Assembly: GCA_016795505.1 (NCBI GenBank)
Contig: JAEUHH010000014.1
Location: 186,001 to 250,000 of the forward strand
Reading direction: 5' to 3'
DNA from: Verrucomicrobiales bacterium
GTDB lineage: Bacteria; Verrucomicrobiota; Verrucomicrobiia; Verrucomicrobiales; DEV007
DNA: 64,000 nt
The position numbers and the translations under genes are program-made. Of this stretch, positions 4,403-46,541 are shown in pieces. Numbering within the stretch: position 1 is the first letter of the stretch; every line of letters begins with the position of its first letter. Under the pieces are notes generated by a model. The model worked only from the letters and a program-made list of their open reading frames with translations, was not told where the DNA came from and did not search any database.

Positions 4403-4446
4403 GATGAGACAGGGTTGGATCGGAGATGAAACAGGGTTGGATCGGA
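4403..4446 (-). repeat. 22-bp palindromic element, two tandem units (site A)
   Basis: Two units, 4403-4424 and 4425-4446, each GATGARACAGGGTTGGATCG plus two more bases. Read on the minus strand, the core is ACCCTGT flanked by GATC-type arms, and the last unit ends exactly at the start codon of the barrel gene (4402). The same element occurs at 17710, 25201, 36291 and 46498. Confidence 0.8.
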
Positions 4447-6926: not shown

Positions 6927-7421
6927 TCAGTAGGGCCTGGCGGGGATCACCGGAACGCCGTTGACGATGGTGCAGCGGGTATAGACCGGCTGGCCGTTGA
7001 TCACGTAGACGTAGTAATAGGTCCCGGAGCAGAAGTAGTAGTTCACCCCGCCAAACGGCCGGATGACATAGCCGGCGGGCAGGCCGTACATATAGCGAGC
7101 CGGATTCCGCGGATCGAAAGGACCGCGGGGGTCGAAAGGCCCACGCGGATCCAGCGGTCCACGGGGATCGAGCACCCCACGCGGGTCGGCGATGCCGCGG
7201 GGATCGGCAATGCCACGCGGGTCCAGCGGACCACGGGGATCGAGCGGACCCCGCGGGTCCAGCGCGCCGCGGGGATCGGCCAGACCGCGCGGATTGGCGG
7301 GGCGGTGACGCGGGGCGGCCTGGCCGCTGGAGACAGTCAGCGCGACCAAGGCAAGCAGGGCCAAGGCGCGTGGTGAGGCGAGACGAAGCAGGAAAGCGGG
7401 AGTCGTCGGGACTTTTTTCAT
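6927..7421 (-). CDS. Secreted protein with DPRG hexapeptide repeats
   Basis: A 164-residue protein. The start at 7421 gives a clear signal peptide (ALALLALVALTVSSGQAAP); the open frame continues far upstream but overlaps the next gene. Residues about 42-108 hold eleven tandem hexapeptides of the form DPRG-x-x (DPRGPL, DPRGIA, DPRGVL, DPRGPF; the ends diverge to NPRG and DPRN). The C-terminal 55 residues are Tyr/Val-rich with two cysteines (NYYFCSGTYYYVYVING). They resemble the YYYCNGxYY-type tail of small secreted proteins grouped under DUF6515, a comparison from memory. Function unknown; it may be an extended, charged envelope linker. It sits between the sulfatase and the DUF2092-like gene. 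Confidence 0.7.
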   Translation of the reverse strand: MKKVPTTPAFLLRLASPRALALLALVALTVSSGQAAPRHRPANPRGLADPRGALDPRGPLDPRGPLDPRGIADPRGIADPRGVLDPRGPLDPRGPFDPRGPFDPRNPARYMYGLPAGYVIRPFGGVNYYFCSGTYYYVYVINGQPVYTRCTIVNGVPVIPARPY

Positions 7422-14021: not shown

Positions 14022-14657
14022 TCAGACCGCCTCGGAAAAACCCGCCGCGTCGCAGAGGCGGACCAACTCCGCCACCGAGGCGACGCCCATTTTCTCCATC
14101 ACCCGGGACCGGTGGGCCTTCACGGTGCGCTCGGCGATGTCGAGACGGTCGGCGATCTGTTTGTTCAGGGCCCCCGTGATGACCCAGGCCATCGTTTCGC
14201 GTTCCCGGTCCGACAGCGTGGCGATGCGGCGGCGGATGTCTTCGGCCTGGAGAGATGCGGACAGGCGACGGCGATGGTGGTCGAGCCCCTCCGCGATGGC
14301 GGCGAGCAGATCCTCGTCGTGGATCGGTTTGGTGAGAAAGGTGATCGCCCCGCCCCGCATCGCCTGCACCGTCGCCTCGATGCTGCCGTTGCCGCTCATG
14401 AAGACGATCGAGCAGGGGCAAGCGCGCGCCATCAGGATTTCCTGCAATTCCAGCCCTCCGAGACCCGGCATCTGCAGGTCGATCAACGCACAGGCCGGTC
14501 GGGCGCCGAGGGTGGGCAGGGCGGTGAGGAAATCCTCGGCCGAGCCAAAGGTCTCCACCGCATGGCCACCCTCCCGGACCAGCCGGGACAGACTCCGGCG
14601 CACCGAGGCGTCGTCGTCGATGATGAATACCGTGGCCTCCGTGTCGTGTCGCGTCAT
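14022..14657 (-). CDS. FixJ/NarL-type response regulator
   Basis: A 211-residue protein with an N-terminal receiver (acidic pocket DDD at residues 14-16, phosphoacceptor D60 in ALIDLQMPGLGG, K110 in FLTKP). A LuxR-type helix-turn-helix at about 145-205 contains ALNKQIADRLDIAERTVKAH. Its start codon overlaps the stop of the kinase gene by 4 bp (ATGA), so the two are translationally coupled and form a two-component pair. The architecture matches FixJ/TodT-type transcription activators. No target promoter can be assigned from the sequence. Confidence 0.92.
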   Translation of the reverse strand: MTRHDTEATVFIIDDDASVRRSLSRLVREGGHAVETFGSAEDFLTALPTLGARPACALIDLQMPGLGGLELQEILMARACPCSIVFMSGNGSIEATVQAMRGGAITFLTKPIHDEDLLAAIAEGLDHHRRRLSASLQAEDIRRRIATLSDRERETMAWVITGALNKQIADRLDIAERTVKAHRSRVMEKMGVASVAELVRLCDAAGFSEAV

Positions 14658-16745: not shown

Positions 16746-17354
16746 TCAGGACAGCGTGATGCTGCCGATGCGGCTCGGCTGGCCGATCTCGACATCGTTG
16801 AGCATGCCCAGAGCCTGATACTCGCGCACCTCGGGCACGGCGGGGTCGGCCAGCGGCGTCCGGTCGTGGTAGGGACTGCGCCGACTCTGGCCGATTCGGG
16901 TCCACTCCGCCGTCCCGCGGCGACGGCTGTAAATGACCACCGCGTGACACCGGCCTTTGGTGAAGGCCACTCGGATGTGGCCCCCCAACAGTGAGAGTCG
17001 CAGCACGGGGCGGAAGGTGTCCGGGTCGAAATCCGGCTGCGGAGCGGCCAACTGGAGCCGGCCCTCGGTGCCGCTGGCCCCGTAATCCGGCAGGGTGCGC
17101 CAGCGCCGGATGATCTGGCGGATCTTTGCCTCGTTGGCCCGGGTCCGGGTGGCCTCAACCGACCGGGCGCCTTTGAGGGCGGCCAGAGCCGAGTCAGCGT
17201 CCGCCATCGTCGCGATCTGCTCGTCGGCGAGGGCCTTGGCGGCCGCGATGTCCGCCGGCGAGAGCCCGAGCAGCGGCCCCATCTCGTCGATCGATTCACT
17301 CAAGTTCTTCCACCAGAGATACTTCTCGGCGCGGCGTTTCGGCATCCAGTCCAT
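16746..17354 (-). CDS. Unknown protein of a PVC-type family
   Basis: A 202-residue protein from ATG 17354 (MDWMPKRRAEKYLWWKNLSE). There is no signal peptide. The N-terminal half is helical, with the W-x-x-N-L...LGLS-x-x-D pattern. The C-terminal half is beta-rich, with a fibronectin-like run (HIRVAFTKGRCHAVVIYSRR). From memory this layout matches short hypothetical proteins that recur in Planctomycetes and Verrucomicrobia genomes, without a known function. Its upstream region is occupied by the 21-bp and 22-bp palindromic arrays starting 102 bp from the start codon, which may matter for its expression. Confidence 0.6.
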   Translation of the reverse strand: MDWMPKRRAEKYLWWKNLSESIDEMGPLLGLSPADIAAAKALADEQIATMADADSALAALKGARSVEATRTRANEAKIRQIIRRWRTLPDYGASGTEGRLQLAAPQPDFDPDTFRPVLRLSLLGGHIRVAFTKGRCHAVVIYSRRRGTAEWTRIGQSRRSPYHDRTPLADPAVPEVREYQALGMLNDVEIGQPSRIGSITLS

Positions 17355-17455
17355 GGGTGAGCTTGTTTGATGAAACCGGGCACAGCTTCCCAGAATCCCG
17401 TTCTCAGGTAAAGAGAAAATCGGAATCGGGCGAAAAATGCCGGACCTGGAGCAAA

Positions 17456-17665
17456 CAGGTCTGGACCGCACTCAGTCAGGTTGCGACCCAAAGAAACCAG
17501 GTCTGAACCAAACCATGTCAGGTCTTGACCAAATAAAATGCAGTCCAGACCGAATAGAATTCGGTCCAGACCGAAAGGTAACAGGTCCAGACCAAATTGA
17601 TTCAGGTCGCGACCTGATTAGATTCGGTCCAGACCGGAAAATATCAGGTCCAGACCGATAACGGC
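17456..17665. repeat. Ten-unit array of palindromic cores, 21-bp period
   Basis: Ten consecutive 21-bp units start at 17456 and repeat exactly every 21 bases, with a partial eleventh at 17666. Each has a core close to CAGGTCCAGACC, whose GGTC-NN-GACC part is an inverted repeat, followed by a variable A/T-rich 9-base spacer. The cores vary (TCTG, TGCG, CTTG, GCGC in the middle) but the spacing does not. The 21-bp period is two helical turns, which would place every core on the same DNA face. Confidence 0.85.
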
Positions 17666-17709
17666 CAGGTCCGGGGTTGGCGGCGTCATTCCGGGGGATG
17701 GGGCGATCC

Positions 17710-17775
17710 GATCCAACCCTGTTGGATCGGCGATCAGACCCTGTCTGATCGGAGTAGAGACCCTGTTGGATCGGG
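17710..17775. repeat. 22-bp palindromic element, three tandem units (site B)
   Basis: Units 17710-17731, 17732-17753 and 17754-17775. The first two are perfect inverted repeats, GATCCAAC-CCT-GTTGGATC and GATCAGAC-CCT-GTCTGATC: 8-bp arms, 3-nt loop, then a GG-x tail. The third has a decayed left arm (GTAGAGAC). Confidence 0.85.
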
Positions 17776-18025: not shown

Positions 18026-20041
18026 CTATTGGGCGACGACGAGGGCGAACTGGCACCAGAAGACGCACTCGCCGTAGGCTTCGAGCGCGGTGATCTTGTC
18101 GTTGGCGGGTCCGTCGCGGAAGGCGGTGGCCAACTGGTAGGAAAACCGGGCCGACTCGGGGATGAAGCCTAGCTGTTCCCGGCAACGCGCGGCGACTTCG
18201 CGGCAGCGACGCTCGCCCTGGTTGAGCTGGTGGCGGAGGGCGGTGGGATTGCCGAAGTCGGAGAGGGCATTGTTGGCATCGAACTGGGGGCCGAGGCAGT
18301 ACCACTTGTTGGACAGGCTGGAGAGGCGCTGGTAGGCATAGACGCCGGCGCCGAGCCCGAGCAGGGAGTCGGCGGCGGTGTGCTGGGCGGTGTCGCCCTG
18401 CTGGAGGCTGGCCGCGATGCGGGTGGCATCCATCACGCTGGTGAAGTCGCCCTCGCGCAGGGTGAGGATTTCCTCCAGTTGGGCGGGGGACATCTCGCCG
18501 TTGTCGAGCACGGGCTGGACGACGAGGGCCATGAAGTAATCCTTGGCGGCAAAGGCTGCCGACGCGTAGCCGCTGGCGAGCCGGCTGAGCACGGCGGGGT
18601 CGGCTTTTTTCTCAAGGCCCTGGGGATTGGCGAGCAGCAGGTTGCGCTCGGCGATTTCGACCTGGGAGGCGGAGAGGGAGTACCACAGGTGGGGCTGGAC
18701 GAGGGATTTGACGAGCATCTGGTAGACCTGGGGATCGTCGAGGCTGGCCTGTCCCTGGTTCACGGCTTCGAGGATCTGGGTGGCCTGACTGCGGGCGTTT
18801 TTGGCCTGATTCAGGAAGCCGTAACCCTGCACGTAGTTCGCGAGGCCGGAGATGGCGGCGATGGTGCCGTCGAGCGACTCGCCGAGGGCCTGGTCTGAGA
18901 ATCGCTGGTAGACGGTCTCCATGCGCTGCTCGACTTCGGCGCGCTGCTGGATGAGCTGGCTCATGGCATTCACGTCGCCCCGGGACAGGGGCAGGGAGAT
19001 CTCCAACTGGGCCTCGATGGCATTGAGCAGGGCGGTGGCTTCGACGTGCCGACGCCAGGCAGCGGCGACCTGGCCGCCCTGCAGGTGGCTGTCGCCGTCC
19101 GCGTAAAGCTGCTGGGCTTCGGCGATCATGGGCCGCAGGGGATCGGCGACGGCGAGCTGTCCGGCGGCCTGGTAGTCGGCGAAGGCTTGCTCGATGCGGC
19201 GACCGAGGGCCTGGCTCTGGCTGGCCCAGTGCCCGACATCCTGGGTCAGGGAGGCGCGGACGGCGGGGTCCAGCTCCATGTCGCGCTCATCGACCGGGGT
19301 GGGGCGATCGAGGGGTTTTCCGGTGAGGAACTCGTAGGCGTCCCAGAGATCGCGGATCTCGACGACTTCGAGGCCGAGGGCGCGGCCGAAGTCGTTCACA
19401 TCGACGAGTTGCTGGCTTTTCAGGTCCATGCTCATGCGGTTCCCGATGGGATAGCCGAAGCGTTTGAACCCTTTGGCGGCGGCGCCCTGCATTTTCTGGG
19501 GGATGCCGCCGACCGGGCCGGCGGTGCCGTCCTGGTTGACCGCGCCGGTCATGGTGGAGTCGGCGCGCACGTCGTCTCCGCGCAGCAGGGCGGTGAAGGT
19601 GGCGGTCATGAGCATGCCGGCGGAAGGACCGTCGACAAGTCCGCCGAGGTCGAGCATGAAGCGGGCGTCGGCGATGTCCATCTCGAGCACGGAGCAGGCA
19701 TTGAGCGCGGCCATCCAGGCGGCACCGACGAACTGCTGTCCGGTGCCGCTGGAGAACTGCTGGGTGACGCCGACGGAGGGCCGACTGCGGGTATTGGGCT
19801 CGACGATGAGCAGGCAGGGGCTGGTGCCGCCGGTGGGCGGGTCGCCATCGGCAAAATAAACCGCGTGGACTTCGGCTTCGCGCCTCTGGGTGACGGCGGT
19901 GGGCGAGGCGGCGGGCTCGGCCGGGCCGGGTGTTTGGGTATCGCCGATGAGTTTTCCGAGCAATCCGCCTCCCGACTGGGCGGATGCGGGGAGCGCGGCG
20001 AGAATGATGGGGAGGGAAAGGAGGCAGAGGCGCAGTTTCAT
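18026..20041 (-). CDS. Secreted Lon-type (S16) protease domain protein
   Basis: A 671-residue protein starting at 20041, with a signal peptide (CLLSLPIILAALPASA). Residues about 55-230 resemble the proteolytic domain of Lon: LVDGPSAGMLM carries the serine (S140) and GGIPQKMQGAAAKG the lysine (K183). They are 43 residues apart, as are S679 and K722 of E. coli Lon. There is no AAA+ ATPase domain. The remaining 440 residues are helical and unassigned, with YADGDSHLQGGQVAAAWRRH suggesting TPR-like packing. The signal peptide implies an ATP-independent, Lon-like peptidase in the periplasm. It follows the lipocalin-like gene by 34 bp and miaB on the same strand. Confidence 0.8.
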   Translation of the reverse strand: MKLRLCLLSLPIILAALPASAQSGGGLLGKLIGDTQTPGPAEPAASPTAVTQRREAEVHAVYFADGDPPTGGTSPCLLIVEPNTRSRPSVGVTQQFSSGTGQQFVGAAWMAALNACSVLEMDIADARFMLDLGGLVDGPSAGMLMTATFTALLRGDDVRADSTMTGAVNQDGTAGPVGGIPQKMQGAAAKGFKRFGYPIGNRMSMDLKSQQLVDVNDFGRALGLEVVEIRDLWDAYEFLTGKPLDRPTPVDERDMELDPAVRASLTQDVGHWASQSQALGRRIEQAFADYQAAGQLAVADPLRPMIAEAQQLYADGDSHLQGGQVAAAWRRHVEATALLNAIEAQLEISLPLSRGDVNAMSQLIQQRAEVEQRMETVYQRFSDQALGESLDGTIAAISGLANYVQGYGFLNQAKNARSQATQILEAVNQGQASLDDPQVYQMLVKSLVQPHLWYSLSASQVEIAERNLLLANPQGLEKKADPAVLSRLASGYASAAFAAKDYFMALVVQPVLDNGEMSPAQLEEILTLREGDFTSVMDATRIAASLQQGDTAQHTAADSLLGLGAGVYAYQRLSSLSNKWYCLGPQFDANNALSDFGNPTALRHQLNQGERRCREVAARCREQLGFIPESARFSYQLATAFRDGPANDKITALEAYGECVFWCQFALVVAQ

Positions 20042-20075
20042 GGGCGGTATGGGTGGCCGGCGGGGCGGGGTCACT

Positions 20076-21674
20076 TCACTGGTTGGGCTGCTCGCGGGCG
20101 CGCTCGAAGACATTTTCCGAGCCGTCGCCGCCGCGCAGGGTCAGGCTGTCGGCGGCAACCTGATATTGGGCGACGGCGTTCCAAGTGCCGTTGTAGAGGT
20201 AGAGCACGGCCTGTTTGGCGCACCAATGGCTCTGCTCGATGGCGGTCTGCTCCTGGGTGCGGAAGGCCTGCTCGGTGCCGAAGAGATAGGTGCCATCCTC
20301 GGCGAGGACCAGGATCGATGGCTCGCGGTCCAGGTAGGTGCCGGCGGTGCCGTTGCTGTCGAAGTCGACCCGGTATTTCTCCGGCAGGATCCAGACTCCC
20401 ACCAGGGCTGGCTCGATGGTGCCCGGTGCCTGTCCAGTCGGTGCGGGAACGGGGGCCGGCGCCGGGGCGGGTCCGGGCTGAGTGGTGGATGCGGCGGGAT
20501 CGGGCTGCCGGGCGAGGCTCACCTGCCCGGTGCCGAAGTCGATGCTCAGGGTGTTGGGATCGACCAGCCGGATCGGGAAGGCGGCCTCCTGCTGATTTCC
20601 GATCGGGAGCGTGTAGAGCACGCCGTCGGCGATGCGGTAGGTGCCTTCGTTCTGCTGGACGGGGGCATTCTGCGGGGCGAGCCGGATGCCGTAGTTCGCA
20701 TCGTCGTAAAAGGCGAGGGTCATGGCGATGGTGCCCTCCAGGATGCCGCTCCACACCCCGATCAGGGGATTGGCCGGCATGGCGGCCGGTGTCTGGCCCG
20801 CCGGAGCCGGCTGAGGCGCCTGGGGAGACGGTGCGGGCTGGCCGGGCGAGGCCGGCGGCGGCAGATTGATCACCAGACCGCCGCCGGGCAGCCCCGGGAC
20901 CGCCGGCGGGGCGGGGGGTGTGGCGGCGGGGCTGTCGACGAGCGCAAGTACGGCGGTCTCGTCGCCATCCTGGATCGTCATCTGGGTGGCGCTGTCGAGT
21001 CGGTAGGCGATCTCGGTCTCGGCGGTCGATCCCCGGGGTTTCAAAAACAGCCGGCTTTCCTCCCGGCGGTAGGTGCCGGTCACGATCTGCCGTTTTCCGC
21101 CCTGGCCGACGGCCATTTCGTAGGAGCCATCCGGGCCCAGGGTGAGCTCGATCTCTGATCCGGCCAGGGTGCCGCGCCATTTGCCGACCACGGTGGCGGC
21201 ACTCTCGCGATGCAGCACCATTTCATTGCCGCCGAGGGTCAGGGAGAGCCGTTCGCCCTCAATGTGGGCGGCGGCACGGGTCGCGGCGCTGGCTTCCGCT
21301 CCGTCGGCACGGAGGACCAGGGTGTCGCCGGTGAATTCGTAGGTGCCCGACTCGCTGAGTTTACGGCCAAGTTGCTCCACATCGAGCCGGTAACGGCCAT
21401 CGTCGGCGAGGGCGAGGCGGGTGACGTTCCCACCACTCTGGCTGGTGCTCCAGATGCCCACCTCGGGCGCCGCGGTGCCGGCCTCCGGGGTGGTCAGGAC
21501 CTGCTGGAGGAGGGACGAGGTCTTTTTCGGCTTTTCCCCGACGAGCTTGCCGAGGGGCGAGGAGCGGACGGTGGGATTGAGTTCGGCCTCGGCTTGGGAG
21601 CGGGCGTCTCCCGGCGGGGTGAGCAGCAGCAGCGACAGGATGAGGGCGAGTGGGTGCGACGGTGGCTGGCTCAT
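20076..21674 (-). CDS. Secreted protein with repeated lipocalin-like domains
   Basis: A 532-residue protein from ATG 21674, with a signal peptide (LALILSLLLLTPPGDA). It contains at least four beta-rich blocks, each opening with a G-x-W motif (VGIWSTS, VGKWRGT, IGVWSGI, VGVWILP). Each then runs through a G-x-Y strand (GTYEFTGDTLVLR, GSYEMAVG, GTYRIADG, GTYLFGTE), a pattern seen in lipocalin-like small barrels. Two Pro/Ala/Gln-rich linkers separate the blocks. Function unknown; ligand or polymer binding is possible. It lies between miaB and the Lon-like protease and probably works with the latter. Confidence 0.6.
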   Translation of the reverse strand: MSQPPSHPLALILSLLLLTPPGDARSQAEAELNPTVRSSPLGKLVGEKPKKTSSLLQQVLTTPEAGTAAPEVGIWSTSQSGGNVTRLALADDGRYRLDVEQLGRKLSESGTYEFTGDTLVLRADGAEASAATRAAAHIEGERLSLTLGGNEMVLHRESAATVVGKWRGTLAGSEIELTLGPDGSYEMAVGQGGKRQIVTGTYRREESRLFLKPRGSTAETEIAYRLDSATQMTIQDGDETAVLALVDSPAATPPAPPAVPGLPGGGLVINLPPPASPGQPAPSPQAPQPAPAGQTPAAMPANPLIGVWSGILEGTIAMTLAFYDDANYGIRLAPQNAPVQQNEGTYRIADGVLYTLPIGNQQEAAFPIRLVDPNTLSIDFGTGQVSLARQPDPAASTTQPGPAPAPAPVPAPTGQAPGTIEPALVGVWILPEKYRVDFDSNGTAGTYLDREPSILVLAEDGTYLFGTEQAFRTQEQTAIEQSHWCAKQAVLYLYNGTWNAVAQYQVAADSLTLRGGDGSENVFERAREQPNQ

Positions 21675-42686: not shown

Positions 42687-43790
42687 TTCGGTTCGTCGGC
42701 GATCGTTGGAAGGGTGTCGCCAGAGGTTTCCTCGGGCCATTCGGCTCGGCGCCCCTCTTTGTGGGGCTCCGCAGCGGCCAAAATGGGGCTTCGTACCGCC
42801 CACTTCGAGCCGGAGGCTCGACGGAAATAAGCCGGTGGCGCCAGCCACCGGAAACCGTCTCAAAATCAAAGAGCGCCCCGGAGGGGCGCCAACCTGCGGA
42901 CGCCGGGTGTGGGTGGCTGCCGTGGAAACCCATCCGCCGCCCCTGCCGGGGCGGACGGGTATTGGTGGACCGGAACCCGGTGGCTGTCGCCACCGGCTTA
43001 TTTCCGCGAAGCCTCCGTCTCCGTCTCCGGAAGATGGGCCTACGGCAGCTCGACCGCCGCAGAAGATGGGCCGACGGAAGATCTCGCAACTCGAAGACTG
43101 GCCCGAAAACAAGTGAGGCGGTCCGCCAAAACCCACCGGGACCGCAGGCGTCCCGCCTGCCCCGGAGCCCATGGTGGTTGGTCGGGGTTGCTGGGCCCAC
43201 CAAGACGCCTGTCGTCCCGGAGTGTTATCCTTTCCCTTCGAGCATCACGCGACATTCCCTGGCATTCGGTTCTGCAAAAGTTCCTGCGTTCTCCCATCAA
43301 CCGACCGTCACCTCGCATCACAACGTGCTCATCACCCGGCATCCACCCACTTCGAGCCGGAGGCTCGACGGAAATAAGCCGGTGGCGCCAGCCACCGGAA
43401 ACCGCCCCAAAATCAAAGAGCGCCCCGGAGGGGCGCCAACCTGCGGACGCCGGGTGTGGGTGGCTGCCGTGGAAACCCACCGGGACCGCAGGCGTCCCGC
43501 CTGCCCCAGAGCTCATGGTGGTTGGTCGGGGCTGCTGGGCCCACCAAGACGCCTGTCGTCCCGGAGTGTTATCCTTTCCCTTCGAGCATCACGCGACATT
43601 CCCTGGCCCGGAACCCGGTGGCTGTCGCCACCGGCTCATCGCCGCGAAGCCTCCGGCTCCGTCCCCGGAAGATGGGCCTCCGCGGAAGATGATCGCCCCG
43701 GAAGACAGGCGCCTCAGAAGCTCGACTGCCAACAGAAGCTCGACCGCCAACAGAAGCTCGACCGCCAACAGAAGCTCAGGCACTGCCGTC
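42687..43790. repeat. 1.1-kb mosaic of duplicated hairpin modules
   Basis: No gene is credible here. Three modules occur twice: X at 42799-42932 and 43346-43479 (134 bp, nearly identical), Y at 43131-43263 and 43475-43607 (133 bp), Z at about 42970-43041 and 43608-43679 (72 bp). Each is built of short hairpins, such as CCGGTGGC-GCCA-GCCACCGG, GCGCCCC-GGAG-GGGCGC and GCAGGCG-TCC-CGCCTGC. The module order differs between the halves (X-Z-Y and X-Y-Z). Open frames on both strands simply translate the repeats. Confidence 0.85.
43715..43768. repeat. 18-bp tandem repeat, three units plus partial
   Basis: Units CAGAAGCTCGACYGCCAA at 43715, 43733 and 43751, with a partial fourth to 43778. It ends 12 bp before the stop of the barrel gene. 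The units are almost identical, so the expansion is recent. Confidence 0.85.
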
Positions 43791-46236: not shown

Positions 46237-46497
46237 TAAACTTTTTAAGTTTTTGAAATTTCATGGCCCGGAAGCCTTCCATTTCTGCACTGTTCTCCCT
46301 CCCGTTGCCGGGTGGATCAGCCGCGCTGTAAGCGGTAGTAAAGCGCGAAATTGGTTCGTGCCAACCGGTTTTTCCGCCCTCCCGAACCCGGAACCGGGGA
46401 GGGGAGAAAAATCGGCGCCGGCTTGCACTTGCGGTTGTGGGGCGAGCCAAAGCCTCTACAATTATCGCCCGTCGGGCGCGGCCATTGGCGCGATCCC

Positions 46498-46541
46498 GAT
46501 GCAACAGGGTTGGATCTCCGATCAGACAGGGTCTCATCGGA
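46498..46541. repeat. 22-bp palindromic element, two tandem units (site E)
   Basis: Units 46498-46519 (GATGCAACAGGGTTGGATCT plus CC) and 46520-46541 (GATCAGACAGGGTCTCATCG plus GA), 80 bp before the aconitase start. Confidence 0.8.

Follow-up and report, generated by a model that had tools for sequence, protein, structure and literature searches.

Operators of XRE (Cro/CI-type) repressors in lambda-like phages are palindromes placed about two helix turns apart, to which dimers bind cooperatively. Plasmid iterons and partition centromeres are tandem protein-binding sites in helical phase, and in CRISPR arrays, which are accompanied by cas genes, repeats of ~20-40 bp alternate with unique spacers of about the same size. 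REP and REPIN sequences are short intergenic palindromes which occur many times per genome and are linked to RAYT transposases (PMC3733652, PMC3116915). The palindromic amphipathic repeat coding element (PARCEL) is protein-coding and has a unit of 25 residues (PMC2996958). The array presented here lies in a window of 64 kb (the whole stretch of DNA that was analysed) upstream of a gene that we call gene A. Our literature searches found no description of such arrays, and the class to which it belongs, arrays with a period of 21 bp before one rare gene family, is apparently undescribed.

A motif scan of the window detected ten GGTC-NN-GACC cores starting at 17458 + 21k, from 17458 to 17647. The earlier note had placed ten cores at intervals of exactly 21 bp in 17456-17665, and the scan confirmed them with a span close to that one (Table 1), which extends to 17443-17671 if the half-sites at both ends are included. 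Seven of the ten cores match GGTCNNGACC perfectly and the other three have one mismatch each. The GC content is 68% for the array core and 31% for the spacers compared to 64% for the window. Between units we observed a mean pairwise identity of 93% across the arms and of 44% across the spacers, where composition alone would give 32%; the spacers are nearly random in sequence. None of them contains an indel and all have the same length across the ten units, which bears out the statement that the spacer sequence varies while the spacing does not. With repeats of 10 bp and spacers of 11 bp the array does not match the dimensions of a CRISPR. We also searched the 6.5-Mb genome for further arrays with the same core and found the window array to be unique; the other matches of two cores at 21 bp were isolated pairs. 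The isolated core is not enriched genome-wide either, as its 14-bp form has 22 matches outside the array compared to 15 for a control pattern, which is a point against reading the cores as operators.

Table 1. Coordinates of the array, of gene A and of other features of the window.
Feature	Position	Strand
Ten GGTC-NN-GACC cores with 11-bp A/T-rich spacers, exact 21-bp steps	17458..17656	.
Starts of the ten cores	17458, 17479, 17500, 17521, 17542, 17563, 17584, 17605, 17626, 17647	
Half-site GACC, in register, gene-proximal end of the array	17443..17446	.
Half-site GGTC, in register, gene-distal end of the array	17668..17671	.
Gene A, 202 aa, downstream of the array, uncharacterised patchily distributed family	16746..17354	-
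Leader of gene A from its start codon to the array, presumably with promoter and 5' untranslated region	17355..17442	-
Open frame across the array	17437-17661	+
FixL/FixJ-like pair, the regulators nearest to the array	14022-16606	
Gene with a partial Lon_C match, its 3' end on the other side of the array	18026-20113	-
Three 22-bp palindromes (CGATCCAACCCTGTTGGATCGG type) adjoining the array	17709-17774	
Units related to the 22-bp palindromes	near 4403-4446 and 46492-46532	
Two Acido-Lenti-1 small RNAs	42806-42851 and 43353-43398	-
Imperfect 18/36/72-bp tandem repeat	7120-7294	

We interpret the window array as a row of operators to which a dimeric regulator binds cooperatively and whose two-turn spacing is under selection, and assign this reading a probability of about 0.6. 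A dimeric helix-turn-helix protein would recognise the GGTC-NN-GACC dyad. As the sites recur every 21 bp, that is every two turns of B-DNA, successive dimers would be located on the same face of the helix and could bind cooperatively along ~200-230 bp, and the strip bound in this way would control the transcription of gene A. Protein binding, cooperativity and an effect on transcription are what we infer, and so is the regulator that would act on the window copy; the arrays are probably docking strips for gene regulators. The dyads are in helical phase and the array is located upstream, with its nearest half-site ~90 bp from the start codon of gene A, as an operator array would be. The likeness to the Cro/CI-type operators consists in palindromic sites about two turns apart and in the XRE genes found beside several sister arrays. 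The differences are the number of sites (about ten or more, compared to two or three in the phages), the exact 21-bp step, the locus-specific cores with many of them per genome, and a window copy with putative binding and without a linked XRE gene.

The symmetry of the cores was evaluated by column permutation. For the window core we obtained p=0.003, and of 24 measurable arrays 13 reached p<=0.02 and 16 reached p<=0.05. Palindromic cores of other arrays include GGTAnnnnTACC (L319), CCAATTGG (L321), GACGTC (L312), GGAGnnnnCTCC (L307), AGTAGCGCTACT (L221) and AACCnCnCGGTT (L327). Across ten arrays, left and right half-sites showed no covariation within units. Half-sites that drift independently around a consensus fit a protein dimer and not a hairpin or cruciform, and we rejected the latter for this reason. 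The columns of the window repeat are unequally conserved (p=0.005), and the same is true for several other arrays. The inequality is not significant in every array, which is a point against the operator reading; some of the arrays concerned contain steps of 20 or 22 bp, so that a fixed register is blurred in them.

The lack of covariation in the ten arrays also distinguishes them from REP hairpins. Like REP and REPIN sequences, the arrays consist of short intergenic palindromes, are present many times per genome and have a patchy linked gene family. However, each array has a core of its own whereas REP is one dispersed sequence, and the units are arranged head-to-tail with a fixed step of 21 bp. 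Gene A matched nothing above chance in Pfam, NCBIfam and PHROGs and hence no transposase family, unlike RAYT. We found neither a dispersed palindrome nor compensatory change nor a linked transposase, and therefore do not count the array among the REP/RAYT elements. In the 22-bp palindromes, three of which adjoin the array (Table 1), the arms change in a seemingly compensatory manner. In this they resemble REP-type hairpins and differ from the 21-bp array.

The loci of homologs of gene A also carry 21-bp arrays. We sampled ~0.86 Mb of the window's own genome, in which one stretch was selected for its family gene, and relatives on a smaller scale. In the own-genome sample 21 bp was the commonest array period, and the periods 20 and 22 were absent. 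The core sequence differs from array to array in the own genome and in the relatives, and the 21-bp period is common to over 20 arrays whose cores are unrelated. A few of the period-21 matches are located inside coding sequence. Of the 20 family loci whose upstream sequence was long enough, 18 have a period-21 array (z>=7) in the 1 kb before the family gene; not all of these loci are independent (L305 and L322 have the same array). The respective counts were 0 of 21 for the downstream flanks of the family genes and 16 of 1,140 for random 1-kb windows. That the window array is one locus of a class with locus-specific cores upstream of family genes is well supported. Arrays of the same period also precede other genes, for example those of an M32 peptidase, a NirDL-like regulator and a DUF1501 protein, and their occurrence before such unrelated genes is a further point against the operator reading.

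These results bear on several expectations of the earlier note. It had read the constant spacing as selection for two-turn phasing; the arrays with unrelated cores and a common period argue for this part, and the binding by which such selection would act is putative. Conservation in relatives extends to the 21-bp period and the upstream position and does not extend to the core sequence, which is different at each locus. The same array at many unrelated positions with variable spacing was to count against the proposal: the core of the window array occurs as an array only once, and period-21 arrays with other cores are present at many places. One of these, in the own genome (L218, 17067-17340), has A/T-rich CAAAA...TTTTG cores and is degenerate like the window array. 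Heptamer arrays (period 7) are a second class of tandem repeats and were observed in the own genome and in the relative G038 (L212, 13956-14100; L231, 39-180; L239, 12309-12430).

A spacing that is kept across arrays of unrelated sequence, together with the A/T-rich spacers of the window array, could also be attributed to a structural element, in which phasing, spacers and palindromes shape or position the DNA for a nucleoid protein that reads its geometry and no particular sequence. However, many arrays are built of units that are not rich in A/T (GC 0.5-0.8), and a protein that reads structure alone would have no need of the specific core which every array retains. We consider this explanation improbable. 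Still less credible is a role as iterons of a replication origin or in partition; the earlier note had allowed for an origin-like or partition-like site. Spacing and A/T-rich spacers are iteron-like, and iterons and centromeres are likewise tandem sites (putative ones here) in helical phase. However, an origin or partition function is very unlikely because the arrays recur at many places of the genome and on large contigs, where they precede members of one gene family as well as other genes. Furthermore, in family scans the genes immediately adjoining the window array gave matches to families of histidine kinases, response regulators, Lon-like and NlpE-like proteins and none to a Rep or Par family.

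The comparison of paralogous loci illustrates how the arrays change. In the relative G054, a 164-bp flank of the loci L305 and L321 is 98% identical up to the start of the array, and beyond the array the homology returns at 87%. The two arrays between these homologous flanks have 16-17 units each and are unrelated in sequence. The loci L303, L307 and L310 of G201 have common flanking segments as well, and the sequences after these segments differ. The sequence of the putative operators thus differs between loci and is replaced fast, and the 21-bp step is conserved. Wholesale replacement between flanks that are 98% identical is what one would expect of a minisatellite, that is of a 21-bp unit which is tandemly duplicated, expands, decays and is replaced, with palindromes and position as by-products and without any regulator. 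The nearly identical units in several arrays (L305, L300 and L254) and the uniform column conservation in some degenerate arrays are in line with such a process. It would have to yield a period of 21 bp for unrelated units and, in the own genome, no array of a neighbouring period, to retain a dyad-symmetric core in degenerate arrays and exact spacing in the window array despite nearly random spacers, and to associate the arrays with the upstream flanks of one family of genes. We therefore judge the minisatellite explanation unlikely, though less so than the structural one.

Candidates for the protein that reads the arrays were found beside some of the sister arrays. In five loci an XRE-type helix-turn-helix gene is located 142-258 bp beyond the array. 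Pfam identified the domain in three of these loci (L339, L341 and L343), and a local profile, seeded with the three sequences and with consensus sequences, added L336 and L342, the latter of which Pfam did not recognise. L340 and L355 each carry a truncated helix-turn-helix gene at the contig end, and these fragments cluster with the five genes, which brings the number of loci to seven. These two loci have the same array and the same fragment, and the remaining loci differ in both. In all sequence scanned with the local profile there were only three other helix-turn-helix matches. We infer that the adjoining XRE-type regulator is the natural reader of the array in several sister loci. We detected no extra copies of the cores at the promoters of the helix-turn-helix genes, and beside the window array, as in most other family loci, no XRE gene was found; both results count against the operator reading. 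The regulator of the window array may be encoded elsewhere. The dyads, the independent half-sites, the upstream position and the XRE neighbours speak in favour of the proposal that the sites serve a dimeric regulator.

The XRE neighbours raise a further possibility, which we put forward tentatively and with more doubt than belief: the loci may be diversifying cassettes, in which a fast-changing XRE-type regulator and its own 21-bp-phased array stand before the same gene set and change together. The gene set would comprise a small Trp-rich ORF, a helical/beta protein and in several loci a further conserved protein. The joint change would keep the many copies within a genome insulated from each other. 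On this view the window copy, which has no regulator gene beside it, would be a reduced one. If the operator reading is true, the arrays offer a natural set of pairs of DNA-binding protein and operator array with a fixed two-turn geometry and many specificities, and the co-evolution of regulator and site becomes directly testable. An upstream 21-bp array would then also be a genomic marker for an uncharacterised multi-copy gene family. The period-21 arrays in these genomes merit a systematic census.

The core itself also occurs in other bacteria, where we found 64 loci with at least three copies of GGTCNNGACC at a spacing of 20-22 bp. Most of them are plain tandem repeats, many inside long open frames. 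As none of the 64 loci has a member of the gene A family or a closely adjacent XRE gene, we treated them as unrelated to the window array. Viral contigs contained pairs of the core, with a third near-match in one case. Synteny within the genus was uninformative, as the flanking genes are without a close counterpart there.

Since 21 bp also equal seven codons, the earlier note had considered a translated heptapeptide repeat as a competing view. The open plus-strand frame on which that view was based is present as claimed, and several other period-21 arrays likewise have one or more frames free of stops. However, in a simulation that kept the cores and drew random spacers of equal composition, half the arrays had one open frame or more, so that such a frame is expected by chance (P=0.50). 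In the conserved GGT and GAC codons the third positions are invariant and other positions vary, which is the opposite of what coding sequence shows. Stops interrupt all three frames of the array on the strand of gene A, and some arrays include steps of 20 or 22 bp. We rejected the coding explanation and regard a short protein with a seven-codon unit as extremely improbable. PARCEL elements are similar in that they are dyad-symmetric tandem repeats with a patchy distribution. The array differs in its unit of 21 bp and its lack of a coding signature, and with the chance-level open frame and the invariant third positions we do not assign it to the PARCEL type.

Gene A has the start and length given in the earlier note (Table 1). 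We found no match to a sigma-70-like promoter in its leader. A profile search of the PDB yielded no relative of the family above chance, and the AlphaFold model, computed from the single sequence without an alignment, reached a pLDDT of 48; at this low confidence, the N-terminus is predicted to be helical and the C-terminus to be of beta structure. Downstream of gene A we observed a histidine kinase and FixJ-like response regulators, one of which, at 14022-14657, is of the LuxR type. Among 388 genomes drawn evenly from the phylum, the profile detected the family in six, with 1 to 12 matches each. It was not found in IMG/VR, nor in PLSDB plasmids and INPHARED phages with one sister protein as the query, nor in the search of genome contigs for related loci with gene A alone as the query. 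In several loci the order downstream of the array is a small Trp-rich ORF, the family gene and a second conserved family gene. In ten loci (L336-L355) this second conserved small protein (MPFDP...) follows the family gene, and some of its copies contain collagen-like GPPGPQG stretches. Elsewhere in the window there is an imperfect tandem repeat, and two Acido-Lenti-1 small RNAs were found ~550 bp apart, both with matches just above the Rfam gathering score.
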